DNA from: Clostridiales bacterium
GTDB lineage: Bacteria > Bacillota > Clostridia > Oscillospirales > Oscillospiraceae
Direction of reading: 5' to 3'
Length of the DNA stretch: 43,432 nucleotides
Assembly: GCA_014799565.1 (NCBI GenBank)
Contig: JAAVHT010000014.1
Location: forward strand, 2,642 to 46,073
Shown: piece by piece, positions 407 to 40,475 of the stretch
Numbering within the stretch: position 1 is the stretch's first letter
Layout: each line of letters starts with the position of its first letter
Notes under the pieces: generated by a model
Seen by the model: the letters and a program-made list of their open reading frames with translations, nothing else
Told to the model about the DNA's origin: nothing
Databases searched by the model: none
Translations under genes and position numbers: made by a program

Positions 407-435
407 TTGCATTACCGGGCACGTTCTGCTATAAT
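407..435 (+). promoter_or_regulatory. Sigma-A promoter, copy 1 of a duplicated promoter unit
   Basis: TTGCAT at 407-412, a 17-base spacer and a perfect TATAAT at 430-435 preceded by TGC (extended -10). It points at the small membrane gene starting at 522. The leader carries a hairpin with arms GCAGCC and GGCTGC. A near copy of this promoter and of its first transcribed bases lies at 889-917. Confidence 0.8.
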
Positions 436-521
436 CGACGCGAAAAACAAAACTGCGGCAGCCTGCGGGGCGGCTGCGGTGGAGGTATTTCGAGCAACAG
501 TTTGGAAGAGAGGTGTTGAAT

Positions 522-888: not shown

Positions 889-917
889 TTGCATTGCTTG
901 GCGCCTTCTGCTATAAT
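889..917 (+). promoter_or_regulatory. Sigma-A promoter, copy 2 (drives the structured RNA)
   Basis: TTGCAT at 889-894, a 17-base spacer and TATAAT at 912-917 with TGC before it. From the end of the spacer through about 25 transcribed bases it nearly repeats the promoter at 407-435. No open reading frame with a ribosome binding site follows for over 350 bases, which suggests that its product is an RNA. Confidence 0.75.
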
Positions 918-923
918 CGACGT

Positions 924-1151
924 GAAAAACAAAAATGCGGCAGCTCACGGGTGTTACCAGCACCCGCAAGCCTGCGCAGGTGACAACACCACCTACACAA
1001 CGGCCATCCGGCCGCACCGCATGGAATCATTATACGATAATCCGGCCCTTCGTGCAAGGGCGGGTTTCTTGTGGTGTTTCCGCGCTTGTGTGCATGAGAG
1101 CCTTGCTTCTTACGCTGTGTGGGATGATCCTGCACGGCGTTTTTGTTTTTC
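924..1151 (+). ncRNA. Candidate structured noncoding RNA, about 228 nt
   Basis: The stretch sits between a consensus promoter (889-917) and an intrinsic terminator (1114-1151) and holds no supported gene. Local hairpins are CGGGTG/CACCCG (948-966), CCTGCGCAGG (971-980), CGGCC/GGCCG (1001-1014), ATTAT/ATAAT (1029-1041) and GCCCTT/AAGGGC (1045-1061). AACACCAC (985-992) can pair with GTGGTGTT (1071-1078), enclosing three of them. The 5' end GTGAAAAACAAAAATGC (922-938) is complementary to the T-rich tail at 1137-1153 over 17 positions with one wobble, closing the whole molecule. I do not recognise the family. A 6S-like or other Clostridia-specific regulatory RNA is possible. The fold is inferred by eye. 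Confidence 0.55.
1114..1151 (+). terminator. Terminator of the candidate RNA
   Basis: Bases 1114-1138 form a 10-base-pair hairpin with loop ATGAT (some G-T wobbles), followed directly by GTTTTTGTTTTT. Confidence 0.65.
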
Positions 1152-1294
1152 ACCCGGCCAGTCCTATCCTGGGGGCGCAAGCCCCCGGGGCGGCTGTGGT
1201 GAATTATGATAACTCGTCCGATGGGAGGGGAGAGGCCGAAAAAACTTGATCGGTTTGCATCATCAATACAGTTCTATGAACAGGAGTGATTTCA

Positions 1295-1768
1295 GTGGTT
1301 GAACTATTATGTCTTGCCGTCATTGTGATTGGTATCATCCTTATTGTCAGTTATCTTCGCGCTTGGAACAAAAGCCAGAGCAGTCGTCAGACCGAAGCGG
1401 AAGCCCAGCGCCAACGGCACGGAGGAGAAGCTGTTTTGGAGTGGGACGGCCCCAGGGCGTCCGGCGCACCGGATCAGGAGTTTGGCGAGCTGCTTGTGGA
1501 GATCCCTAAAAAATCCGGCGGGAGTGCGCGCTTCTACGAGCGGGGAGCTGTGCTGGATGGCAAGCGCCTGGCCTATGACGCGCTGAAGGATGTGGCTTTT
1601 GCGGAGCGTACCCCCGCGCTGATCCAGACGCCGAAGACTGCCGCAGTGATGTGGCTGTACCCGAAAAAGGGTATGGGGAGGCCCATCTCTCTGTTCAGCC
1701 TGCATTATGAATATGAGGACGCGACCATGAAGGCGATCCAAGTTGGATTAGGGTTTGGCCGCGGGTGA
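1295..1768 (+). CDS. Membrane-anchored small protein, unknown function
   Basis: A 157-residue protein with an N-terminal hydrophobic anchor (about residues 2-20), a short Gln/Arg/Glu-rich linker and a soluble domain of mixed beta character (about 48-155). No family is recognised; the soluble part resembles in style the small PH-like domains of Bacillota membrane proteins, but this is only an impression. The GTG at 1295 is chosen because AGGAG (1282-1286) lies 8 bases upstream; an in-frame GTG at 1286 overlaps that site. The region upstream (1152-1294) holds a GGGGGC/GCCCCC hairpin and no clear promoter. It is convergent with cysS and shares a terminator with it. Confidence 0.7.
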   Translation: MVELLCLAVIVIGIILIVSYLRAWNKSQSSRQTEAEAQRQRHGGEAVLEWDGPRASGAPDQEFGELLVEIPKKSGGSARFYERGAVLDGKRLAYDALKDVAFAERTPALIQTPKTAAVMWLYPKKGMGRPISLFSLHYEYEDATMKAIQVGLGFGRG

Positions 1769-40289: not shown

Positions 40290-40381
40290 GGCAAGGCGCA
40301 TTGGCAAACCATGGGAAACTGTGGGACGCAAAGCCAGAGGCTGTGGCGCGGGATTCCGTGCTAAGCTCGTTCGGTTGCATG
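40290..40381 (+). promoter_or_regulatory. c-di-GMP-I (GEMM) riboswitch aptamer 1
   Basis: It contains the GEMM core GGCAAACC, a GGAAAC loop, GTGGGACGCAAAGCC, then AGAGGCT pairing GCC with GGC, a second helix (GGCGCGG with CCGTGCT) and the closing CTAAGCTCGTTCGGTTGC segment. The order and conserved bases follow the class I cyclic-di-GMP aptamer. It abuts aptamer 2. Upstream, 40238-40285 holds a related but degenerate GGGGAAACGG...GCGACGCG stretch. Confidence 0.85.
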
Positions 40382-40475
40382 GCAAAACAGCGGAAACGCT
40401 GCGACGCAAAACCAGAGGCTAAGGAGCCGCTGAGACTGTTTGGCGGTTCTAAGCTCGTTCGGTTACCGGATACCT
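40382..40475 (+). promoter_or_regulatory. c-di-GMP-I (GEMM) riboswitch aptamer 2
   Basis: GCAAAACAGCGGAAACGCTG forms the first helix with its GAAA loop, then GCGACGCAAAACCAGAGGCT, the tetraloop-receptor-like CTAAGG, a second helix (GAGCCGC with GCGGTTC) and TAAGCTCGTTCGGTTACC. It shares two conserved blocks with aptamer 1. Just downstream, CCTTTGC can pair with GCAAAG and the AAGG of the ribosome binding site (40473-40503), which suggests control of translation, as no terminator is present. Confidence 0.85.

Follow-up and report, generated by a model that had tools for sequence, protein, structure and literature searches.

A predicted antisense-controlled transcription attenuator from a chromosomal, multi-copy family in Clostridia

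To our knowledge, antisense-controlled attenuation is known mainly from plasmids and from a few single genes. In pT181, the 5′ arm of a terminator is blocked by an antiterminator unless an antisense RNA sequesters the latter (PMC4878617), and in pIP501 a convergent promoter gives rise to the 136-nt antisense RNAIII, which causes transcription to terminate prematurely in the repR leader (PMC4981023). RnaG of Shigella acts through a kissing complex, giving an antisense-induced terminator in the icsA mRNA leader (PMC5394118). Similar 5′ terminators before non-homologous genes, including genes of mobile elements, were described by Naville and Gautheret (2010) as “attenuator regulons” and “mobile attenuators”; unlike the present work, the main text of that paper does without the word antisense, and its regulon analysis deals with Enterobacteria and Bacillus (PMC2965389).

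The locus described here lies in a window of 43,432 nucleotides (the whole stretch of DNA analysed) from a Clostridiales bacterium. The logic that we propose for it is that of pT181 as set out in the source cited, with an antisense RNA complementary to the 5′ part of a leader sequestering an antiterminator. In contrast to pT181, however, the family to which the locus belongs is chromosomal and multi-copy, stands before many unrelated genes, has a target other than a replication gene, and combines a four-way-junction antisense RNA with a covarying helix that closes the 5′ and 3′ ends of the leader. With pIP501 the likeness proposed is one of layout, and plasmid copy control is not the role of the present family; in some integrase-type loci a small divergent gene of putative HTH type, beside the leader promoter, loosely recalls the small repressor CopR. 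Whereas a single target gene is described for RnaG in the account cited above, the present family is widespread and precedes many genes. What differs is the family itself, chromosomal, multi-copy, associated with many genes and endowed with a four-way-junction antisense RNA; antisense attenuation as such is already known. Among the papers listed in literature searches, none was seen to describe this Clostridia attenuator family, which is not proof of absence.

A predicted leader and a nested putative antisense RNA

The leader, RNA-B, would start from the promoter P_B at 889–917 on the plus strand (TTGCAT, 17 nt, TATAAT), and its terminated (attenuated) form would span 924–1151 (+), about 228 nt, as judged from the promoter and the U tract. 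The original prediction had placed a consensus promoter here, and the sequence is indeed promoter-like, with a perfect −10 and a −35 that matches TTGACA at 3/6 positions. It had also called the RNA highly structured, in agreement with its fold (922–1153: −107.9 kcal/mol, z −7.2, 0/200 shuffles as good), and had ended it with an intrinsic terminator, which we find at 1112–1150 (+) as a hairpin (1112–1140, −19.4 kcal/mol) followed by a U-rich tail. A further proposal, an 8-bp enclosing helix (985–992 with 1071–1078), was not supported: the letters are complementary, yet the helix is absent from the minimum-energy and centroid folds, and its eight pairs are lost in both genus relatives inspected by eye (L003 and L007). 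The element had not been recognised as any known family, and Rfam, with 6S, raiA, and other families, gave zero matches to it at 924–1151 at the gathering threshold, and none at the element in the loci of 20 relatives (one tRNA lies in the flank of one relative); at a loose threshold, nine matches between 700 and 1400, all far under the gathering scores, were taken as chance. In the whole window, the only known-family match at the gathering threshold is a c-di-GMP-I riboswitch aptamer at 40371–40470 (+).

Absent from the original prediction were a conserved minus-strand promoter (1057→1029), a better-folding RNA on that strand, and a co-directional gene (1295–1768) after the terminator. The opposite-strand promoter, P_A (1029–1057, minus strand; TTGCAC, 17 nt, TATAAT), is predicted to lie within the leader and to read back across its 5′ half, an arrangement of the pT181 and pIP501 type. 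Its putative product, RNA-A, about 99 nt long (1022→924, minus strand, with ends estimated), falls within the 5′ half of RNA-B, to which it is complementary. It folds into a perfect four-way junction of P1 (1022–1016/941–935), P2 (1015–1010/1005–1000), P3 (999–989/983–973), and P4 (972–961/953–942), followed by a U-rich tail (934–924). Over 924–1027, the minus strand reaches −55.4 kcal/mol (z −5.9) with zero unpaired bases at the junction, against −40.3 kcal/mol (z −4.0) for the plus strand in the same comparison. The downstream gene, which together with its Shine-Dalgarno sequence occupies 1282–1768 (+), starts with GTG at 1295 and encodes a predicted protein of 157 aa with a hydrophobic N-terminal segment; a Pfam scan gave no family for this product.

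Our reading, to which we assign a probability of roughly three-quarters, is that the locus is a countertranscript-controlled transcription attenuator of gene 1295–1768. P_B would start RNA-B as the leader of this gene. In the ON state, the antiterminator segment CCUACACA at 992–999 (+), which complements part of the P3 5′ strand of RNA-A, would pair in the nascent RNA with the terminator 5′ arm UGUGUGGG at 1116–1123 (+), for which the terminator 3′ arm also competes, so that the terminator would be blocked and transcription would proceed. P_A would give RNA-A, a four-way-junction RNA of high stability that is the complement of RNA-B 924–1022. It would contact the leader, probably through kissing of the P3 and P4 loops, and occupy 992–999; the terminator arm would then be freed and the terminator would form, stopping transcription at about 1151 (the OFF state). 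Sequence comparisons support the two promoters, RNA-A in its fold as well as its strand, a terminator before a co-directional gene, and the covarying antiterminator and closing helices; transcription, kissing, and the direction of the effect are inferred. If true of a family spread over a bacterial class, with several copies per genome, this would be a general way for gut Clostridia to keep costly genes off.

Both promoters recur among relatives. The main set consists of 105 elements, namely 91 CM matches and 14 (L217–L230) of 71 further ones; as it combines the best genome-search matches with 60 places picked down the family list, high-scoring matches are over-represented. A held-out set comprises 42 elements, mostly from other families (one further locus was skipped). 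The promoter consensus is TTGACA at −35 and TATAAT at −10, and under a looser rule asking for 3/6 matches at −35, 4/6 at −10, and 9/12 overall, P_B-like sites occur in 75/105 relatives (6.5% in shuffles) and P_A-like sites in 94/102 (2.9% in shuffles), P_A being the more regular of the two; in the held-out set P_B was found in 23/42. The −35 is weak in both promoters and neither is listed by a stricter consensus scan, which missed P_B because its −35 has only 3/6 matches where 4/6 per hexamer are required.

Comparison of the predicted antisense RNA, antiterminator, and loops among relatives

A first alignment held 17 sequences, that of the window among them; 95.8% of its RNA-A stem cells are paired, and it outdoes all shuffles on four out of five covariation measures, the exception being further pair types (448/500); the stem cells that are not Watson-Crick on the minus strand comprise 109 G.U, 7 A.C, and 19 others. 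A larger alignment, A6, built from 91 CM matches from 90 sources and fitted to the model, which favours structure, has 94.3% of 3233 RNA-A stem cells paired, with 26/36 pairs changed on both sides and 0/500 shuffles doing as well on any one of the five covariation measures. Among its 90 distinct sequences, the stem cells of the antisense strand include 550 G.U, 40 A.C, and 145 other combinations, and G.U exceeds A.C in 90/90, an excess that points to selection as RNA. Moreover, RNA-A is more stable than its complement in 105/105 elements, and a near-perfect four-way junction is found in the sampled relatives, including those from other families of the class. By these comparisons, structural selection is strongest on the nested antisense RNA-A. 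One weak class-level match (L271), included in the class tally, lacks the junction fold and is a doubtful member.

The antiterminator pairing covaries as well. Between the RNA-B stretch complementary to the P3 5′ strand and the terminator 5′ arm, the mean duplex score over 91 distinct elements is 7.02, compared with 5.96 when arms are permuted among elements (top of 200: 6.23; relatedness is ignored in all permutation tests given here). Shuffling the arms lowers the score to 4.50, and at nine other offsets along the leader it is 4.6–6.8, the top one overlapping the antiterminator. The held-out elements give 6.72 against 5.28 permuted (top of 300: 5.95) for the 29 of 42 in which a terminator was called at a looser threshold of −10 kcal/mol, the calls in L286, L288, and L290 looking spurious. 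P3 and the arm change jointly, as in the pairs GUGUAGG/GUGUAGG, GUAUGG/GUAUGG, GUGCUGAG/GUGUUGAG, GCGUAAGGU/CGUAAGGU, and GCGUAUGAG/UGUAUGAG; counter-examples with weak pairing are L018 (score 4), L181 (4.5), and L050 (poor by eye).

When transcripts stop short of the 3′ arm of the terminator, the predicted probability of pairing between arm and leader averages 0.457 versus 0.093 for shuffled arms (n = 92), and exceeds 0.3 in 74/92 versus 13/92. In the window, 1116–1123 is predicted to pair with 992–999 when the transcript ends at 1126, 1130, or 1135, and with 1129–1136 when it ends at 1140 or 1151. By computation, the stretch of leader able to pair with the 5′ arm of the terminator falls within the region targeted by the antisense RNA. 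The full free RNA at equilibrium favours the terminator (0.89, or 0.94 without the leader), and a switch would therefore have to be kinetic, decided during transcription.

The loops behave differently from the stems in one genome. In G609, eight of ten fetched paralogues have a stem diversity of only 0.024, whereas the diversity of their P3 and P4 loops is 0.66 and 0.61, with 8/8 distinct sequences for each; their P2 loop hardly varies (0.083). This pattern fits loop-loop recognition with insulation between copies, and is suggestive rather than proof. Across 334 element pairs with stem divergence below 15%, variation extends to all three loops, that of P2 among them (0.68, 0.69, and 0.52), so that the variability could there reflect relaxed constraint; G609 is the stronger case because its P2 loop is kept. 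Some P4 loop sequences recur in the main set (15, 9, and 9 of 105). YUNR is the motif of U-turn loops, and it is present in 37/105 P4 loops (23% expected) and 24/103 P3 loops, a weak enrichment for which it was dropped as an argument. A U-turn recognition loop is a feature of pIP501, according to the title of a reference in PMC4981023. The whole P4 arm was also considered as the determinant of specificity and set aside, its identity being lower than that of the P1–P3 half in only 5/9 multi-copy genomes.

We tentatively consider it possible, though on balance doubtful, that the copies in one genome form a set of mutually insulated antisense attenuators in which one type of switch is reused before surface-protein genes and the integrase genes of mobile elements: the stems would set the competition between terminator and antiterminator and the P3 and P4 loops the address, each RNA-A silencing its own gene alone, perhaps with rare stochastic ON states resembling phase variation but requiring no inversion of DNA. 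A further check on read-through RNA may come from the closing helix and from H2 (see below). The proposed rules, stem for switching and loop for address, give testable predictions.

The same evidence bears on the idea that RNA-A is a structured sRNA in its own right, one that binds a protein or acts in trans, and that its overlap with the leader is secondary. Such a role would suit the most constrained part of the locus, with its junction nearly perfect across families of the class, yet it would sit badly with P3 and P4 loops that are hypervariable among the paralogues of one genome, unlike a site for a protein or a common target, and with a P3 that changes together with the terminator arm of the other transcript. 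We regard this explanation as improbable, although it fares best among the alternatives to the attenuator.

The putative leader and the genes downstream of it

A terminator of −14 kcal/mol or better follows the leader in 93/105 elements, and three of the other 12 stop at contig edges. Of these 93 terminator-bearing elements, 86 are followed by a same-direction script-called ORF with a plausible ribosome site and a start within 450 nt (several of these ORFs are doubtful, and the set has no orientation control); the start lies within 250 nt in 77, 150 nt in 63, and 60 nt in 11, with a median of 93.5 nt. An intrinsic terminator thus stands between leader and same-direction gene, the layout of an antisense attenuator. 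In L047, the start codon of an excisionase-like gene lies about 26 nt beyond the terminator tail. Promoter-like sites between terminator and start were found in 2/69 gaps under the looser rule (shuffled, 1.0%). In a pattern-selected set of 110 elements, nearby genes on the side of RNA-B share its direction in 64 cases and oppose it in 19; near ORFs on the far side also favour the RNA-B direction (43/68, with 25 away), so part of this orientation bias may be general.

The downstream genes are diverse and include those of SLH and BspA surface proteins and of integrases. A Pfam scan covered 80 ORFs out of 95, those set aside being 6 that were short and 9 that were duplicate or doubtful, and found SLH in 12, BspA LRR_5 in 8, copper amine oxidase N in 8, NPCBM in 5, phage integrase in 4, resolvase in 3, TraX in 3, HATPase in 3, and others. 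Among the 25 listed of the 48 Pfam families none is a replication family, so these genes do not point to plasmid copy control, and the diversity of the proteins, many above 200 aa, does not agree with the single small toxin family of a type I toxin-antitoxin sense RNA. Of the 110 pattern-selected elements, 16 are followed, within 800 nt and in the direction of RNA-B, by a member of a tyrosine-integrase cluster and 5 by a member of a serine-recombinase cluster; the largest ORF cluster near the elements was rejected as probably spurious ORFs crossing the element itself. Some integrase-type loci also have a small HTH gene (cluster of 8) on the other side and a mobilisation-like gene (cluster of 6), the single member tested per cluster matching HTH_26 and a NikA-like family, respectively. 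In L080, L081, L087, L123, and L149, the order observed is a small gene pointing away from the leader promoter, an integrase past the leader, and then a mobilisation-like gene. The proteins downstream of L182, L194, and L059 show GHKL-ATPase-like matches or similar sequence; those of L182 (match below the Pfam cut-off) and L194 (assigned by eye) start 37 and 35 nt past the terminator.

The complementarity of 17 positions between the two ends of the RNA (922–938 with 1137–1153), part of the original prediction, is retained as a closing helix of −22.0 kcal/mol and has gained strength from covariation, the check that had been suggested for it. Its duplex score is 10.63 against 7.86 with tails permuted in 91 distinct elements (top of 200: 8.28), and 8.24 against 6.05 in 29 held-out elements (top of 300: 7.03). 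A second hairpin, H2 (1143–1209, plus strand, −39.3 kcal/mol), reuses part of the terminator tail in the predicted read-through RNA; post-tail hairpins of relatives average −38.2 kcal/mol versus −23.8 for shuffled sequence, and they take tail bases in 80/93 relatives versus 501/930 controls with shuffled downstream sequence, which is just moderately above chance. The 5′ end of RNA-B, the tail, and H2 might compete as a possible second layer of control. Some class-level relatives, such as L260, have a hairpin past the tail that contains the Shine-Dalgarno sequence, and translational control by pairing of tail and ribosome-binding site, seen in 7/75 main-set elements, was rejected as a general feature.

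The closing helix raises the question of whether RNA-B is, as first proposed, a stand-alone RNA, acting in trans and closed by its two ends, with the downstream gene incidental. The strong covariation of that helix and the terminator favoured at equilibrium speak for it, whereas starts so close behind the terminator with so few promoter-like sites between them, the excisionase-like start in L047, and an antiterminator covariation that it leaves unaccounted for speak against it, and we judge it less probable than an independent RNA-A. The original description of a discrete, structured, unrecognised regulatory RNA stands, but its stand-alone character is improbable, and RNA-B is probably the attenuated leader of the downstream gene.

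Leaders of this kind could also sense a ligand or a protein, as riboswitches do, with the inner opposite-strand promoter a by-product. A terminator and antiterminator before unrelated genes is indeed a riboswitch layout; the inner promoter is, however, the more regular of the two, the G.U wobbles favour the antisense strand in every A6 sequence, the loops vary widely (even if some P4 loops recur), and Rfam gave no family match in the element or the relatives’ loci. For these reasons a sensing leader ranks lower still.

Distribution and mobility

With blastn, related DNA was found in 19/42 same-genus genomes, the window’s own included. Model R1 found the element in 137/400 genomes of the family (51/106 genera, up to 9 copies), and model R2 in 61/394 genomes of the order (35/168 genera, up to 10 copies) and 20/391 of the class (16/222 genera), the three samples overlapping and the weakest matches being doubtful. 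An exact pattern matched 109 stretches in named genomes; among the 80 of these that are listed, all titles specific enough to give a group point to Clostridia, with Flavonifractor, Oscillibacter, Agathobaculum, Evtepia, and Gemmiger as examples. Pattern matches lie in records of Flavonifractor sp. An112, Oscillibacter valericigenes, and Agathobaculum butyriciproducens. The same pattern matched one stretch in viral contigs (IMG/VR), and blastn gave no match for the window element against phages, for one relative against phages and plasmids, or for another against plasmids. A class-wide family, multi-copy before surface-protein and integrase genes, would constitute a large natural collection of RNA switches.

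That the element is merely a repeated mobile DNA whose ends resemble RNA signals would accommodate its multiple and partial copies, its association with integrases, and contigs ending at copies, but is hardly credible for copies that diverge strongly while keeping their base pairs and whose excess of G.U over A.C shows selection as RNA.

Several minor observations concern individual copies. Three contigs of G055 (L054, L179, and L180) end near a copy, which suggests near-identical repeats breaking the assembly. In four genomes of one genus (L260, L261, L264, and L265), similar predicted proteins of 97–99 aa come right after the attenuator. The window itself has a partial copy at 407–470 (+), consisting of a P_B-like promoter and some 30 nt from the start of the leader; inspection by eye showed neither an antisense promoter nor an attenuator in it. 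It precedes gene 522–830, a small ORF with hydrophobic stretches, and similar or longer partial copies lie upstream of related ORFs in G007, G008, and G012.
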